Assembly (NCBI GenBank): GCA_002403905.1
Contig: DHIR01000038.1
Location: 1 to 9,365 of the forward strand
Source: Mucilaginibacter sp. UBA4741
Lineage (GTDB): Bacteria; Bacteroidota; Bacteroidia; Sphingobacteriales; Sphingobacteriaceae
Reading direction: 5' to 3'
Length of the DNA stretch: 9,365 bases
The position numbers and the translations under genes were made by a program. The notes below the pieces were generated by a model. That model made no database searches, was not told the origin of the DNA, and saw nothing but the letters and a program-made list of their open reading frames with translations. Position 1 is the stretch's first letter. Each line of letters opens with the position of its first letter. Positions 2-9,156 of this stretch are shown here, piece by piece.

Positions 2-757
2 TTAACCCGAACTCACGTTAATTAATAAAAACTTAGCTACCAATCGTTTTGCTAAATTATCACCTCCCTCTTTTGTTTCTCTAATAGGATACTTTCCTAC
101 TAAATATCCTTCTTGATATCTGGGTCTATACGCATTAACAGGAGAAACATTTTGAAGCTTGACGAGGACAATCTTTTGATCAATGAAATGAGATATGCTG
201 CCATGAGGATAAGGTAGTCCAAATACAAATAAATAACCTTTAGTAGTATTTCGCAAAGCCATTGTAGCAGCTACCCTTAACGATTGAGTTATATCGATTA
301 AAGGAGTAAAGCATGTTTCGTAATGCTGAAATAATGAAATATACCATTCATCCAAATGCCTTGTCTTGCCTTTATATAGGTTTATTAACTTATATAACTT
401 ATCATACCTATCAATGATTTCATTCGACCTTATAAGAGATTTGGTTGTACCATCTTCTCTCTTTGATGGCCTACAAATTGATGGATAAACAATAGTTTTA
501 TTGTTTTTATCTTTATAATCCTTTGCCTGCCCCCTATAGAACATCTCATAATGAGTATTATTTAACGTTACATTTGCAACTTCATCCACTAATTCTCGAA
601 AAGATTTAATCTCATACCCTTCCGACAGTCGAATTTTACTCACAGAAGCAAAATCATCTTCAGCCCAAGTTTTAGTTGATCGATTTTTACTTGGACAAAA
701 GATAATAGGCGTGTCTATTTGATATCTTGAACGAAAATTTCCGATTATAGGCTGCAT
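2..757 (-). CDS. FRG domain-containing protein
   Basis: The 251-residue protein shows the hallmarks of the FRG domain: the name-giving F-Y-R-G-Q at residues 73-77, Q-H-Y at 144-146 followed by T-P-L-I-D-I-T at 151-157, and a late R-x-R-x-Q-x-G at about 211-217. The biochemical activity of FRG proteins is not settled; they occur as accessory genes and are sometimes found near phage-defence genes. No signal peptide or membrane segment is visible, so it is probably cytoplasmic. The ATG at 755-757 is the only good start and the stop TAA lies at 2-4, so the gene is complete although it touches the window edge. The gene is distinctly AT-rich: 39 G/C in bases 1-120 against 65 in 1381-1500. This suggests acquisition by transfer (inference). 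It is divergent from the monooxygenase gene. The domain call is fairly sure; the role is unknown. Confidence 0.85.
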   Translation of the reverse strand: MQPIIGNFRSRYQIDTPIIFCPSKNRSTKTWAEDDFASVSKIRLSEGYEIKSFRELVDEVANVTLNNTHYEMFYRGQAKDYKDKNNKTIVYPSICRPSKREDGTTKSLIRSNEIIDRYDKLYKLINLYKGKTRHLDEWYISLFQHYETCFTPLIDITQSLRVAATMALRNTTKGYLFVFGLPYPHGSISHFIDQKIVLVKLQNVSPVNAYRPRYQEGYLVGKYPIRETKEGGDNLAKRLVAKFLLINVSSG

Positions 758-879: not shown

Positions 880-1902
880 ATGAGCACAAATAGATTACGC
901 CTTAGCGTGTTAGACCAATCTCCTATAAGGAAAGGTGTAACTGCCGAGCAGGCCATACAAGAAACCATCGCGTTAGCAAGATATACCGACCAGTTAGGTT
1001 ATACCCGATTTTGGGTATCAGAGCATCATAACACGGGTAGCCTGGCAGGATCAACCCCCGAAGTTTTGATAGCCTACCTGGCATCGCAAACAACAAACAT
1101 TAGAGTGGGATCAGGCGGAGTAATGATGCCTAATCATAGCACTTTAAAGGTTGCCGAAAATTTTAGGATGCTGGAAGCATTGGCCCCCGGCCGGATAGAT
1201 CTGGGCATGGGCCGCGCGCCCGGTACCGATCGCATTACAGCATCTATACTTAACCCATCCAATAATTTTGCCGAACAGGATTTTATAGAGCAACTGGCAG
1301 ACCTGCGCAACTATTTCCATGATACCGCCGAGCCGGGTACCATAAAGTAAAAAATACGTGCTATCCCGCAGGTAAAAACAGTACCAGCTATGTGGTTGTT
1401 AAGCTCGAGCGGGCAAAGTGGGTTATTCGCGGCACATTTTGGTATGGGCCTGGCCTTTGCCCATTTTATTAACCCGGTTGGCGGGCCGCAAGCAGTGCAA
1501 TTATACAGAGATAAATTTCAGCCATCGCTGGATCTGGCACAACCCGAAGCCAATATGGCCATCTTTGTTTTTTGTTCGGACGATGAAGAGAAGGTAATGC
1601 AGCATAAGGCGTTGATGGATCATCGTTTTATCCAGTTTGAACGAGGACTTGGCCTGTCGCCATTTGGCTATGACGATATAAAAGATACCGAATACACCCT
1701 GCATGAGCAGGACCGCATACGCTACAACCGTCAACGTGTAGTTGCCGGAACACCGGCCATGGTAAAAACCCGGCTAAGCCAACTTGCCGAAAGCTATGGT
1801 GTTGATGAAATTATTGCAGTAACCATTGCCGAGGATTTTGACGACAGGCTGCAATCATATAAACTATTAGCAGATATGTTTGGGGTAAATAAACAAGTTT
1901 AA
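880..1902 (+). pseudogene. LLM class flavin-dependent oxidoreductase (MsnO8/YhbW type), internal stop
   Basis: This is a luciferase-like TIM-barrel monooxygenase family, whose members use FMNH2 and O2; the substrate is unknown. The frame from ATG 880 has S-E-H-H-N at residues 47-51, G-S-G-G-V-M-M-P-N-H-S at 77-87 and G-R-I-D-L-G-M-G-R-A-P-G at 104-115, all typical of the MsnO8 group. Codon 157 (1348-1350) is TAA. The same frame then continues without a gap through I-R-A-I-P and W-L-L-S-S-S-G-Q-S-G to the end, in register with E. coli YhbW from memory. Total length is 340 codon positions, close to the usual size of about 335. There is thus one substitution-type stop and no indel, for example CAA or GAA changed to TAA. 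An ATG at 1390 could open a C-terminal piece, but that would lack half the barrel. I prefer start 880 over 766 because the family begins near the R-L-S-V-L-D strand. The stop lies 7 bases from the convergent NHL gene's stop. Confidence 0.85.
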
Positions 1903-1909
1903 CAACTTA

Positions 1910-3215
1910 TTACTTTATAGGTGCAAAAGTTACTTTACTAACTACACCCGCGCCTGTATTTGCAATATATAAATTGCCCGCCGGATCAAACATCATCCCA
2001 AGCGGGGAGTTTACCGACGCACTAAATGCCGGCCCGGTAAGTACGCCTTTAGCAGCTGTTCCTTTTATAAAAGTGGTTACTACACCTAACTTATTAATTT
2101 CGCGCACTTCGTACACAGGCAACGAACTATCTTCATCGGTTACCCATATATTGCCTGCCAGATCAATTGCCAATTGCCTTGGGTTAGTAAACTGTGCCGC
2201 GGCACCCACTCCGTCAACAAGGCCCGTTGCACCGCTGCCTACCAAGGTTGTTACTACCCCATCTACAGATATACGACGTATGTTTCTAAACTCACGATCG
2301 GTTACATAAATGATACCCTCATCATCAATAGCTATACCTTCTAAATTACCAAACTGTACATCGGTGCCTTTTCCGTTAGCGTAACCGTCCACTCCGTTTC
2401 CGGCAATAGTTGTTACTACACCCGTAGTAGATATTTTGCGTACCCTATGCGCGTCATTAACATATAGGTTCCCTAATACATCATGCGTTATCCCGGTAAT
2501 AGCACTAAATTTTGCTGCGGTTGCGGTAGCATCTGCATAGCCCTGCGTACCATCACCTGCAAAAACAGTGGCTGTTTTATCAGGAGCTATTTTAACAATA
2601 TTAAAATTCCCGGCGTTAGCTACGTACATATCACCTATCGCCAAAATTGTAAAATCTGCTATTGTCTTAAAATCACCGTTCGAATTGGTAATTGGCTGCG
2701 TACGCCCGTCTGATAATATTTTATAGATACTGGTACCGTTATCGCTAAACGCGTTTCCCTGCCTGTCCAAGGCAAAGTGTTTTAACTGGGTTATGCCAAC
2801 TGATATAAAATTATCAACCGAACCATACATTACCGTAAAACTAACCGGCGACTGCAATTGAGCCGTACCAGTTCTAAGTACCAACTGCCCAGAATTAGCA
2901 GTGGCAGGAACCGTAACCGTAATTTGGGTTGAGGTTATAGAACTGATAGGCATCTGCAAATCATTTAAATACACGACGGTACTACCCGGCGTGGTATTAA
3001 AACTTGAACCCGAAATTTTAATAACTGTATTAGGCAACCCACCTTGAGGGCTAATGCCATATATTACAGGGTCCGGCACATTAATAACACCCGAATCACC
3101 ATCAGGTGTTGAGGTAGGCGTAGTAGCTGTTTTTTTTTGCGCAACTGCTTATAAAACTAACCAGCAACAAAGCTATTATAAAACAGAAACCTGTTTTGCA
3201 GTAAAGATTTTTCAA
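1910..3215 (-). CDS. IPT/TIG and NHL-repeat lipoprotein, frame broken at an A9 run
   Basis: The body (stop at 1910-1912 up to about 3128) encodes an IPT/TIG domain, from P-V-I-Y-G-I-S-P to about V-S-F-T-V, then six NHL repeats of the form G-I-x-x-D-x-x-G-x-x-Y-V-x-D, predicted to form a six-bladed propeller. In that frame the only starts are internal, such as GTG 3079, and they leave no export signal. Upstream, another frame beginning at TTG 3215 reads M-K-N-L-Y-C-K-T-G, a hydrophobic stretch, then L-V-S-F-I-S-S-C, an ideal lipoprotein signal with Cys25 at 3141-3143. The two frames meet exactly at nine A (minus strand). With eight A they join into one 434-residue lipoprotein whose linker is C-A-K-K-T-A-T-T-P-T. 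As read, the signal frame stops 13 codons after the Cys. It is a paralogue of the gene at 3382-4821. It may be a pseudogene, a phase-variable gene, a slippage-expressed gene, or contain a homopolymer read error. Ligand and function are unknown. Confidence 0.75.
3130..3138 (-). repeat. Nine-base poly-A tract at the lipoprotein frame junction
   Basis: Nine T on the plus strand read as GCGC-A9-CAGC on the coding strand. It falls directly after the lipobox Cys codon of the NHL lipoprotein. Signal-frame codons are TGC GCA AAA AAA AAC, while the body frame needs ACA GCT. Loss of one A, or a +1 shift, joins them; a -1 shift does not. Tracts of this length are known sites of replication slippage and RNA polymerase slippage. 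Confidence 0.8.
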
Positions 3216-3300
3216 TGGAAAGAGGTTTATTATTTATTACAAGTTAGCTTTAATTTTTTAATTAAAAGCATTAACACATAGTTGCTATACATTATTTACA
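3216..3300. other. AT-rich spacer upstream of the frame-broken lipoprotein
   Basis: This spacer must contain the promoter of the 1910-3215 gene if it is transcribed on its own. It holds the 12-base palindrome TTTTAATTAAAA at 3256-3267 inside a longer near-palindromic AT stretch, and no clear TAnnTTTG box on the minus strand. No coding potential is visible. Confidence 0.3.
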
Positions 3301-3338
3301 AAACAGCCGTTCAAGCTTTTAGGCTTAAACGGCTGTTT
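3301..3338 (-). terminator. Hairpin terminator after the intact NHL lipoprotein gene
   Basis: The arms AAACAGCCGTT (3301-3311) and AACGGCTGTTT (3328-3338) pair perfectly over 11 bp. After one mismatch the stem extends by a further four pairs (3313-3316 with 3323-3326). Read on the minus strand the stem ends in GCTGTTTTG, a short T4 tract, and it sits about 43 bases after the stop of the 3382-4821 gene. It probably ends that transcript and separates the two paralogues. The T tract is weak. Confidence 0.6.
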
Positions 3339-3343
3339 AATGC

Positions 3344-3383
3344 AAGGTTTAGGTTTATTATTGTTAAAGGTTTAGGCTTATTT
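3344..3383. repeat. Short direct repeat at the 3' end of the NHL gene
   Basis: AAGGTTTAGGTTTATTA at 3344-3360 recurs as AAGGTTTAGGCTTATTT at 3367-3383, 23 bases apart, with two differences in 17 positions. The second copy overlaps the stop codon of the NHL lipoprotein gene. It is probably a small local duplication with no visible function. Confidence 0.5.
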
Positions 3384-4821
3384 ATTTAATAGTTACTTTA
3401 CTAATGGTGTTTGCACCTGTATTTGCAATGTATAAATTGCCCAATACATCGATAGTCATTCCATCAGGGAAATTTGTAGAGGCTGTAGCTAGCGGGCCAT
3501 TAATAACACCTGTATTGGATGTACCACTCAATAAGGTTGTTACTACACCCAATCTGTTTATCATTCTTATTGAATACATAGGCAGCAAATAATTTTCATC
3601 AGAAACAAAAACATTCCCGGCTGCATCTACTGCTAATCCATGAGGGTTATTAAATTGTGCAACGGTGCCGGGGCCATCCGTAAAACCGGCAGTACCACTA
3701 CCCGCTAATGTGGTAACAACGCCATCGGGAGTTATTTTGCGTATCTTTTTATACTTGGTATCGCCAACATATATGTTTTTATTAGCATCTACCGCTATGC
3801 CTTCCAGCGTACCAAACTGGGCGGCTGCGCCGGTTCCGTCAACACTGCCATCGGTTGCGCTACCGGCTATAGTAGTAACCAACCCATTGTTAGATATTTT
3901 GCGCACACGGTGCGTATCAGTAACGTATAGGTTATTTGATTGATCAATGGCCATGCCAGTAGGAGAGCTAAACCTGGCTACATTGCCGGCTCCATCCGCA
4001 ATGGCATCGGTACCATTACCCACAAACGAGCTTACTATTCCCTCGGGCGTAATTCTAAAAATATTATGATTACCACGATCCGACACATACAAATCACCAA
4101 ACTGATCAACAACGGTACCCCAAATGCTTTTAAAAGCATTACTATTAGCACCACCCGCAACTAAACTTACAGTACCGCCTACAGCGATTTTATAAATTGA
4201 TTTAGCTCCATCGTCACCAAAAATATTACCTGATGCATCAATCATGATATGCCTTAAGGTTGTTGTGCCCAAATCTTTAAAAGTACTAACCGTACCGCTG
4301 GTTAAAGTAAGGTTGGTTGTTGATGTAAGTACGGTGACACCACTTTTAAGCACAATGGGCCCCGTTGTAGCATTTGCCGGCACTGTTACTAATATCTCTT
4401 TAAAAGGAATAGAATTACCCGTAATAACGGGCACACCGTTTACTACTAGCGTATTAATTGAATTAATTGTGGCTGGCACACCATTTATTGTTATGGTATT
4501 ATTTGAAAACAATGGATCGAAGTTATAACCAATAATGCTTATTACACTATTAGGTAACGCGCTGGATGGTTGAATACTGCTCATTACAGGTATTGCAACA
4601 GTAACCGGCGGGTTTGGAATGCCATCTACATAATCATTATGAAGATCTTTAGTATAATCTTTTTTACACCCGTTTATAACAACAGAAAGCACTATTACAC
4701 TAAGCGTAATAGCCATTTTTTGCCAACTTAAGTTACTAGTTCTCATCTCTTTATTAGGTTTGTGTTTTATTGGTTCAGGTATTTTAGGTGAATATACATA
4801 GTTTTTTAATCTTTCAAACAT
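3382..4821 (-). CDS. IPT/TIG and NHL-repeat lipoprotein (intact paralogue)
   Basis: The 479-residue product has a hydrophobic stretch at residues 37-50 ending in V-V-I-N-G-C, so Cys52 is a likely lipidation site. The following K-K-D-Y-T-K-D resembles the charged export tags of surface lipoproteins in Bacteroidota (inference). An IPT/TIG immunoglobulin-like fold spans about 79-172. Six NHL repeats follow from about 188 to the end, for example G-M-A-I-D-Q-S-N-N-L-Y-V-T-D and G-L-A-V-D-A-A-G-N-V-F-V-S-D, predicting a six-bladed propeller. Such propellers usually bind proteins or sugars; the partner is not evident here. The ATG at Met26 (4744-4746) would give a more normal signal peptide (M-R-T-S-N-L-S-W-Q-K) than the ATG at 4821, so the true gene may be 3382-4746. 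Compared with its paralogue at 1910-3215, it carries an extra loop of roughly 15 residues in the TIG domain (about 123-141). It is divergent from the desaturase gene. Confidence 0.85.
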   Translation of the reverse strand: MFERLKNYVYSPKIPEPIKHKPNKEMRTSNLSWQKMAITLSVIVLSVVINGCKKDYTKDLHNDYVDGIPNPPVTVAIPVMSSIQPSSALPNSVISIIGYNFDPLFSNNTITINGVPATINSINTLVVNGVPVITGNSIPFKEILVTVPANATTGPIVLKSGVTVLTSTTNLTLTSGTVSTFKDLGTTTLRHIMIDASGNIFGDDGAKSIYKIAVGGTVSLVAGGANSNAFKSIWGTVVDQFGDLYVSDRGNHNIFRITPEGIVSSFVGNGTDAIADGAGNVARFSSPTGMAIDQSNNLYVTDTHRVRKISNNGLVTTIAGSATDGSVDGTGAAAQFGTLEGIAVDANKNIYVGDTKYKKIRKITPDGVVTTLAGSGTAGFTDGPGTVAQFNNPHGLAVDAAGNVFVSDENYLLPMYSIRMINRLGVVTTLLSGTSNTGVINGPLATASTNFPDGMTIDVLGNLYIANTGANTISKVTIK

Positions 4822-7128: not shown

Positions 7129-7668
7129 TTAGTTTAGATCTATAATTACGCTAAAGGTATTTAGCCCGGTATCTACATCATACTTGTAAGTAAATGTATC
7201 TGATGATTTGGTAATGATGAGCAAACCAAAATGCTCCATTAGGTTAGTTACATCCAAAACTTCATCGCCGTTTTCTTCTTCGCATACAAACCGTATCTGG
7301 GTATCGCTTTCTACAACGGCATACATACTGTGCAAGCCGTCCTTAGTTAGTAACTCCCGGTGTCCTACATCATAAACAAGTAATGATGTAATATTACCCG
7401 GATGGAAACGGTTACCAAAATCCTTCTTATCTATATTAATGTTATCCTCATTAATGGTGACATCTAAAAATGTTTCAATAGTACCGGCATGCTTTATACC
7501 ATTGGTTAGCAGCTCAATTATTATAACCTCAATTTTAAAGCTAATTCCTTCTGCATTTACACTCGCAGGCAAGCTATTGATCACAAAATCAAGCACTTCC
7601 TGTACCGATGGCTTTATTGACTGCCTGGTATTAGGTAATAAAAACTGTTTGCTTGCTAATTGTGCCAT
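7129..7668 (-). CDS. RsbW/SpoIIAB-like ATP-binding regulatory protein (HATPase)
   Basis: This is a 179-residue protein of the GHKL ATPase type seen in anti-sigma kinases. The N box is E52-L-L-T-N56-G-I-K-H60-A, with the Glu, Asn and His that bind Mg-ATP. The next box is altered: instead of D-x-G-x-G there is K-K-D-F-G-N (81-86), and near the end F-G-L-L-I-I replaces G-L-G-L. It is longer than typical RsbW (about 160), with an acidic middle segment. Known relatives bind or phosphorylate a STAS antagonist and sequester a sigma factor or another target. Here the STAS partner is encoded immediately upstream with a 9-base gap. The weak second box makes kinase activity uncertain; it could act by binding alone. 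No sigma factor gene is adjacent. The ATG at 7668 is the only sensible start, and no Shine-Dalgarno sequence is seen. Confidence 0.8.
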   Translation of the reverse strand: MAQLASKQFLLPNTRQSIKPSVQEVLDFVINSLPASVNAEGISFKIEVIIIELLTNGIKHAGTIETFLDVTINEDNINIDKKDFGNRFHPGNITSLLVYDVGHRELLTKDGLHSMYAVVESDTQIRFVCEEENGDEVLDVTNLMEHFGLLIITKSSDTFTYKYDVDTGLNTFSVIIDLN

Positions 7669-7677
7669 CTGTTTTTA

Positions 7678-8010
7678 TTACTGATTAGTAATCTCGTCAA
7701 AACTATTATATATTTTAAAGACCTTATCTAACCTTGTTAAAGCAAATAGGTTGGTTATGTCCTTACTCAAGCCAACCAAAACAACATCAGCCTGGAAAGA
7801 TATTAAATGTTTAAAAGCTGATACGATCGAACCTAAAAATGAACTATCAATATACTCAACCGCGCTCATGTTTATGGCAATTGATTTATGATACTTATCG
7901 AAAAGCTTGATAATCTCGGCTTTAAACGCGTCTCCGTTTTCAAGGCTGGCTTCTTTTATGTTCAGATTAACAAGCAAAATATCATTAAGCTCTTTATATA
8001 CTTTAACCAT
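7678..8010 (-). CDS. STAS-domain anti-sigma factor antagonist (RsbV/SpoIIAA type)
   Basis: This 110-residue single-domain protein is the normal size for the family. The signature A-V-E-Y-I-D55-S56-S57-F-L-G-S-I-V corresponds to D-S-S/T-G-L-G in RsbV and SpoIIAA, and Ser56 is the expected phosphorylation site. The usual Gly after the serines is Phe58 here. In characterised systems the unphosphorylated form captures the RsbW-like kinase and frees its target; the phosphorylated form does not. The gene sits between the predicted phosphatase (3-base gap upstream) and kinase (9-base gap downstream), so co-transcription and probably translational coupling are expected. The start is ATG 8010. The protein is cytoplasmic and carries no extra sensory domain. 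Confidence 0.88.
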   Translation of the reverse strand: MVKVYKELNDILLVNLNIKEASLENGDAFKAEIIKLFDKYHKSIAINMSAVEYIDSSFLGSIVSAFKHLISFQADVVLVGLSKDITNLFALTRLDKVFKIYNSFDEITNQ

Positions 8011-8013
8011 ACT

Positions 8014-9156
8014 CTAATTTTTATATATGCTGATTATGCTGCGGTCATCCACTTGTTCATTTAAGTTACCACTAAACAAACTTTTTGCTATATGCGTAAA
8101 GTTATTCTCTTTTTCCATAAAAGGCTTTAAAGTTTTAGAAAATTGATTGTAGTCGCTTTTCTTGCCGGTTTTATCAATAAAATCAATCATGCCGTCTGTA
8201 AAGACAAAAAGCCTGTCGCCTTGGTTTAAAACAATTTCCTTCTCGGTATAGTTACCTTCCTCAAATAAACCCAATAACAAGCCTGACGAGCTTACCATGG
8301 TCAATTCGCCTGTTTCATTGCTGTATTGCAGTAAAGGCAGATCGCCGGCACCTGCATAAGTAATGCGGTTGGTTTCACTATCGATTAACAGCAATGATAG
8401 ACTTGATAAAATGTCTTTCAACACCTCATCAAAACAGATAATGCTGTTTACCTGCTGCAAAATTTTAGCGGTCGAGTATTCTTCATTAAAAGCTGCAAAC
8501 CTTACCGCCGACCGCACATAACTTAAAAACCCGAATGTAAAGAACCAGGCCATCCACTTTTTACCCATAATATCGCCCAGCACAATAAAGTTGTAACGGT
8601 CGTTAACCTTTATAAAGTCAATAAAATCACCACCGGGGATACCATGATAAGCCTGGTGCCAAAAATCAACCGTAAACTCTTTTATCTCTGGCGGTTTAAC
8701 CGGTATTGATTTGATGTTAAGCGATTTTGCCGCTTTCTTTACTTCGTTTTCTGATAGCTCACGCTGCTTATCAACAGCAAACAATATGTTGTTTACTTTT
8801 GATACAATTACGTTTATAGGTGTATCCTTTATAACATAATCAATAGCCTGCAGGTCAAGCCCTTTTTCTACCAGGTCCTTGTCTGAGAAAAAAGTCAAAA
8901 AAACAAACGGAATATCTTTAAAGGCAGCTTCGTTCATTAAATAACGCCTAAACTCAAAGCCATTCATTTTAAGCATCAGGTAGTCAGACAAAATAATATC
9001 GGGCTTGGCACCTTCCTGCAATAAAACAATAGCCGCCTCGGCCGATGGCGCTACAGTACAGATAAACCCTGATTTTTTAAATACCTGTTCAATCAGCTTT
9101 AAAAAAAGCTGGTCATCATCAACAAGTAATATCTGCTTGGGTTTACTAATAGCCAT
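8014..9156 (-). CDS. Response regulator with SpoIIE-type PP2C phosphatase domain (RsbU-like)
   Basis: This is a 380-residue two-domain protein. The receiver domain spans about 7-125: acidic pair D14-D15, phospho-acceptor D58 in S-D-Y-L-M-L-K-M-N-G, T88 and K110. A linker runs from about 126 to 160. The SpoIIE/RsbU PP2C domain runs from about 161 to the end: G-G-D177-F, G-D195-I-M-G-K, F-T-D321-G and D370-D371-R-S, the metal-binding aspartates. The stretch after G-D-I-M-G is K-K-W-M-A-W instead of the common G-H-G/K-G-x-x-A. The predicted reaction is dephosphorylation of Ser-phosphorylated STAS protein, gated by phosphorylation of the receiver by an unlinked histidine kinase. It is the first gene of a three-gene operon. 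ATG 9156 is preceded by CCCCAATA with no Shine-Dalgarno sequence, and the stop is TAG. Confidence 0.92.
   Translation of the reverse strand: MAISKPKQILLVDDDQLFLKLIEQVFKKSGFICTVAPSAEAAIVLLQEGAKPDIILSDYLMLKMNGFEFRRYLMNEAAFKDIPFVFLTFFSDKDLVEKGLDLQAIDYVIKDTPINVIVSKVNNILFAVDKQRELSENEVKKAAKSLNIKSIPVKPPEIKEFTVDFWHQAYHGIPGGDFIDFIKVNDRYNFIVLGDIMGKKWMAWFFTFGFLSYVRSAVRFAAFNEEYSTAKILQQVNSIICFDEVLKDILSSLSLLLIDSETNRITYAGAGDLPLLQYSNETGELTMVSSSGLLLGLFEEGNYTEKEIVLNQGDRLFVFTDGMIDFIDKTGKKSDYNQFSKTLKPFMEKENNFTHIAKSLFSGNLNEQVDDRSIISIYKN

Follow-up and report, generated by a model that had tools for sequence, protein, structure and literature searches.

A split lipoprotein gene and its neighbours

The window, by which we mean the whole stretch of 9365 bases analysed here, covers positions 1 to 9365 of C168, a 41,796-base contig belonging to a Mucilaginibacter MAG, and its right end is the start of a scaffold gap. 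This MAG is a draft with N gaps, 80% complete and distributed over 299 contigs. On the minus strand of the window, a TTG start opens a signal peptide of 25 codons (3141-3215), the last of which (TGC 3143-3141) encodes the predicted lipidated Cys. The predicted signal peptide matches a PS51257-like lipobox pattern, and so do its counterparts in two relatives, Mucilaginibacter sp. RYN_313 and isolate UR6-11. As sequenced, the TTG frame comprises 37 codons (3102-3215, minus strand) and then ends at TGA 3104-3102. The body of the protein lies in another frame, as an ORF of 389 aa from GTG 3079 (1910-3079, minus strand) that matches TIG and NHL domains above the Pfam cut-off and has an intact orthologue in RYN_313. 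Further upstream, a stop near 3151 closes the body frame, which offers no start codon from there to GTG 3079. The two frames meet at a run of nine A (3138-3130 on the minus strand, T9 on the plus strand), which starts two bases behind the Cys codon and is the sole A or T run of at least eight bases in the window. The third frame ends at a TAA ahead of the body; a -1 ribosomal shift is thus unable to join the frames, while a +1 shift could. Both this point and the placing of the lipobox signal peptide and the TIG/NHL body in different frames meeting at A9 had been proposed in the sequence-only reading, and both are confirmed. The assembled sequence holds a real frame break in a predicted lipoprotein gene.

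Upstream of the split gene lies a tandem paralogue, an intact TIG/NHL-type lipoprotein gene (3382-4746, minus strand), whose ORF was called from ATG 4821, while the start in RYN_313 corresponds to 4746. A strong, long and perfect hairpin occupies the space between the two genes (3296-3345, minus strand; fold of 3345-3060, z -4.35). It is followed by few T and was not reported by the terminator scan; promoter and terminator scans found none. The split gene has relatives elsewhere in its own genome, where the NHL-repeat protein gave 11 matches at E <=0.001, several of them sometimes within a single ORF. On the other side, a convergent luciferase-like gene of the MsnO8-type LLM kind (880-1902, plus strand) is interrupted by an in-frame TAA at 1348-1350; RYN_313 reads CAA at this codon, and its gene is open. 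Next to it lies an FRG-domain gene (2-757, minus strand), and RYN_313 carries at that place a 242-aa ORF with a lipoprotein-like start. Three genes at 7129-9156 (minus strand) encode a 179-aa protein without Pfam match, a STAS protein and a response regulator with a SpoIIE phosphatase, a set that presumably resembles a partner-switching module. Comparison of the window with plasmids gave no match.

The A run in relatives and in the same species

We compared the locus at the DNA level with that of RYN_313, a sister MAG (locus L061), and that of UR6-11 (locus L062). RYN_313 is 90% identical to the window over 1391 bases and has the same neighbour order from the luciferase-like to the STAS gene. 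The whole lipoprotein is encoded in RYN_313 (435 aa) and UR6-11 (433 aa), with a frame that remains open through the run, so that the window gene is broken relative to intact orthologues, as is expected of a pseudogene. The position of the TTG start is common to the three loci (3215 on the minus strand of the window, L061:5001 and L062:5001), and none of them has an ATG. The orthologues also share with the window gene the lipobox, the C-A-K-K sequence and the TIG/NHL body, but differ from it in their continuous frame and in their shorter run, which is A7 followed by GC in both relatives and A9 followed by CAGC in the window. The signal peptide precedes the TIG domain in frame in both, contrary to the possibility, raised in the sequence-only reading, that homologues might lack it. 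Alignment to the two orthologues maps the frame-changing indel into the A run. By parsimony, the lineage of the window would have lengthened its Lys-Lys run by a G to A change and gained one net inserted base, in either order.

The long run itself is absent from both relatives. Retention of a long run in orthologues, a mark of phase-variable genes, is therefore not what we observed. This bears on the possibility that reversible slippage of the run toggles the lipoprotein and that the assembly caught an off state. An A9 tract so close to the 5' end of a gene for an envelope protein fits such a switch, and in inlA of Listeria monocytogenes coding 5' poly(A) tracts are reported to vary at high frequency (PMC2831843). 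The window gene is similar to inlA in its poly(A) frameshift near the 5' end and its short envelope-protein stub, but differs in that frequent reversible variation was measured for inlA, whereas the window gene is seen in one state and the run of its relatives is short (PMC2831843). Since neither conservation of the long run nor a second length within the species was found, phase variation is unsupported, and we consider it quite unlikely. The nonsense codon in the adjoining luciferase-like gene is likewise not of a switching kind.

Among the 120 of 393 database matches listed, three protein clusters that match the species lack the signal peptide: P0001 with 5 contigs, P0002 with 4 and P0003, 97% identical, with 1. 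These amount to up to 10 contigs, which may include that of the window itself as well as duplicate gene calls; the longest contigs behind them measure 43,078, 39,690 and 10,408 bases, respectively. A full-length form from the same species was not found among the same 120 of 393 matches, while several sources called the RYN_313 protein (P0004) at its full length. Taken as proteins and not as their DNA, the three clusters would favour a break that is not an isolated error, and they come from contigs of different lengths. P0002 and P0003 differ from each other at 12 positions, which all fall between residues 242 and 373 of 375. In 10 cases P0003 carries the RYN_313 residue, a pattern suggestive of recombination or of a chimeric contig.

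Other A runs and other broken genes in the draft

A9 runs as such are not rare: we counted 96 of them here, 112 in RYN_313 and 148 in UR6-11. Ninety-five distinct tracts of the 96 in this genome were scored, of which 15 had a coding signal on both sides, all 15 in frame. The other 80, among them the window's own, fell into the non-coding or edge class, since a flank of 180 bases exceeds what short leader pieces can fill, so that this screen is weak for short leaders. When the open frames around each A9 run were tabulated and nine loci were inspected by eye, no second split case was found. We also searched 149 genomes of the genus for a lipobox-like Cys codon followed by A9. A first pattern, which could not match the spacing of the window's own gene, gave 3 matches against 8 for the control. 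The sequence AGTTGC with A9 starting within 3 bases gave 14 matches in 12 of the 149 genomes against 13 for the reversed control; we therefore rejected a genus-wide enrichment of this arrangement, which also speaks against phase variation.

The in-frame runs bear on two further explanations. One is that some full-length protein arises at the run through slippage of RNA polymerase or through a +1 shift of the ribosome. In tssM1 of Citrobacter rodentium, open frames are joined at an A run as in the window gene, but that run is A11, the frame is regained when an A is added, and the gene works through two products that are both required (PMC4256274). Length nine is described as the point at which selection against A/T runs becomes evident in many bacteria, and dnaX of Thermus employs A9 (PMC1088944). 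The window gene differs from tssM1 in that a single inserted base, the common kind of change, would leave its frame broken. Rescue would require a net change of -1 or +2 bases, whereas single insertions dominate at homopolymers in E. coli and Buchnera; deletions are rare in E. coli and in Buchnera rise with run length (PMC5574713). With A9 runs standing in frame inside other genes of this genome, such rescue is very unlikely. The other explanation is that assembly or sequencing went wrong and that the actual run is in frame. The 15 in-frame runs argue against it, while the N gaps with repeated edges in this draft MAG speak for it; one such gap (C168:31868-31941) lies inside a gene conserved at 97%, where both edges repeat the same bases, and is likely a scaffolding artefact.

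We then counted lesions in genes with an orthologue in UR6-11. From 705 reference ORFs, 69 orthologues were retained at 60% identity and not cut by a contig edge (29 on C168, 27 on C3, 7 on C2 and 6 on three short stretches). Of the 69, six are disrupted, five away from gaps and one where the scaffold has a stretch of N. The split NHL gene matches by its body only and must sit among the 63 scored as intact; it was hence added by hand, which brings the count to 6/69. The five others are a glycosyltransferase, the luciferase-like gene, a TPR protein, a DPP-IV-like peptidase and a DsbD-like protein. Three of them lie in one 40-kb stretch of contig C3, where the TPR and DsbD-like genes are each interrupted by a TAG and the peptidase gene by a frameshift (4-base gap). 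The glycosyltransferase (MshEN + GT2, C168:37424-39264) is one base short relative to UR6-11, at a site that is not a homopolymer. A stricter run at 70% identity gave 64 orthologues, with 57 intact, one N gap and 6 candidates, while 9 were dropped at edges. One of these candidates, an FtsH-like gene, was discarded because its stop falls within the very first residues, where the reference was probably annotated from a start too far upstream. No full-length copy near this species was found for the luciferase-like gene (best matches to the window's pieces 94% and 91%, in 50 of 120 listed proteins compared) or for the glycosyltransferase (best piece matches 91% and 95.5%, in 120 proteins compared).

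A proportion of 6/69 is many, and genuine decay and draft base errors would each produce it. With its neighbour gene broken as well, it indicates that the lineage or the assembly holds further disrupted genes. Together with the same-species clusters that lack a signal peptide, the broken neighbour and the 6/69 make a genuine lesion more likely than an isolated slip of the assembly, and we regard an error at the run as unlikely.

Constraint on the body and fate of the gene

Between the window and RYN_313, dN/dS is 0.143 for the body, 0.205 for the paralogue, 0.050 for the luciferase-like gene (constrained apart from its TAA), 0.044 for an aminotransferase and 0.012 for a desaturase. When UR6-11 serves as outgroup, 30 synonymous and 17 nonsynonymous changes in the body fall on the branch to the window, against 26 and 20 on that to RYN_313 (an earlier body-only count gave 29/17 and 26/20, p = 0.67). 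Summed over six genes, the synonymous/nonsynonymous counts reach 139/45 for the window and 122/34 for RYN_313 (Fisher p = 0.61), so that the window branch carries no excess of changes, which counts against draft errors although this comparison is blind to an error rate near 0.1%. The relaxed selection expected of an old pseudogene is not visible in the body, as would be the case if the break were recent. Any drift of the body has been short: either the break happened recently or the cell continues to make the product. The window-branch substitutions, which bear no sign of long relaxation, suggest that the break is likely recent; the same constraint would also suit a gene that is still expressed through switching or slippage.

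We consider it probable (about 0.6) that the extra base of the A run arose by recent replication slippage, which would inactivate the TIG/NHL gene in this lineage. A G to A change beside the Lys-Lys codons may have lengthened the run and made it prone to slip, and replication slippage would then have added one net base. The ribosome would yield only a 37-residue stub, made of the signal peptide and 12 residues, and the body, if produced at all from GTG 3079, would remain cytoplasmic. A9 could slip back, but nothing indicates that it does so or that selection maintains its slipperiness. Base errors in a draft MAG would likewise give 6/69, which weighs against the slip. Of the four explanations that the sequence-only reading had put side by side, namely phase variation, transcriptional slippage, recent decay and read error, recent decay fits best, and a read error is less likely.

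The same reading had suggested that slippage would switch surface display on and off. Surface lipoproteins of Bacteroidota are described as carrying export signals of the K-(D/E)2 or S-D-D type behind the Cys (PMC5080379). The mature N-terminus of the window protein is C-A-K-K followed by T or A, with no D or E in the following positions. It thus lacks the acidic export motif, which was defined in other Bacteroidota and not in this class; the text of PMC5080379 has no match for 'sphingobact' or 'mucilaginibacter'. Surface display is therefore not supported, and with A7 in both relatives and no second length within the species we rejected the surface switch. It is also quite improbable that the C-A-K-K start (GCA AAA AAA) forms a built-in slip site behind the lipid anchor, with A9 serving in this species to turn an envelope beta-propeller reversibly on and off. 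If it did, one base gained or lost would uncouple anchoring from the entire body.

Reversible switching of the window gene has a low probability; if shown, it would represent phase variation in a free-living soil genus, and a literature search of limited extent found no publication that combines 'Mucilaginibacter' with 'phase variation'. Most likely, the gene underwent a recent inactivating slip and is one of several NHL-repeat genes of the genome. As it stands, the finding is a plain frameshift and calls for caution in the annotation of draft genomes. For lipoproteins, it means that codon choice behind the lipobox can create a slip-prone run that severs the protein from its anchor.
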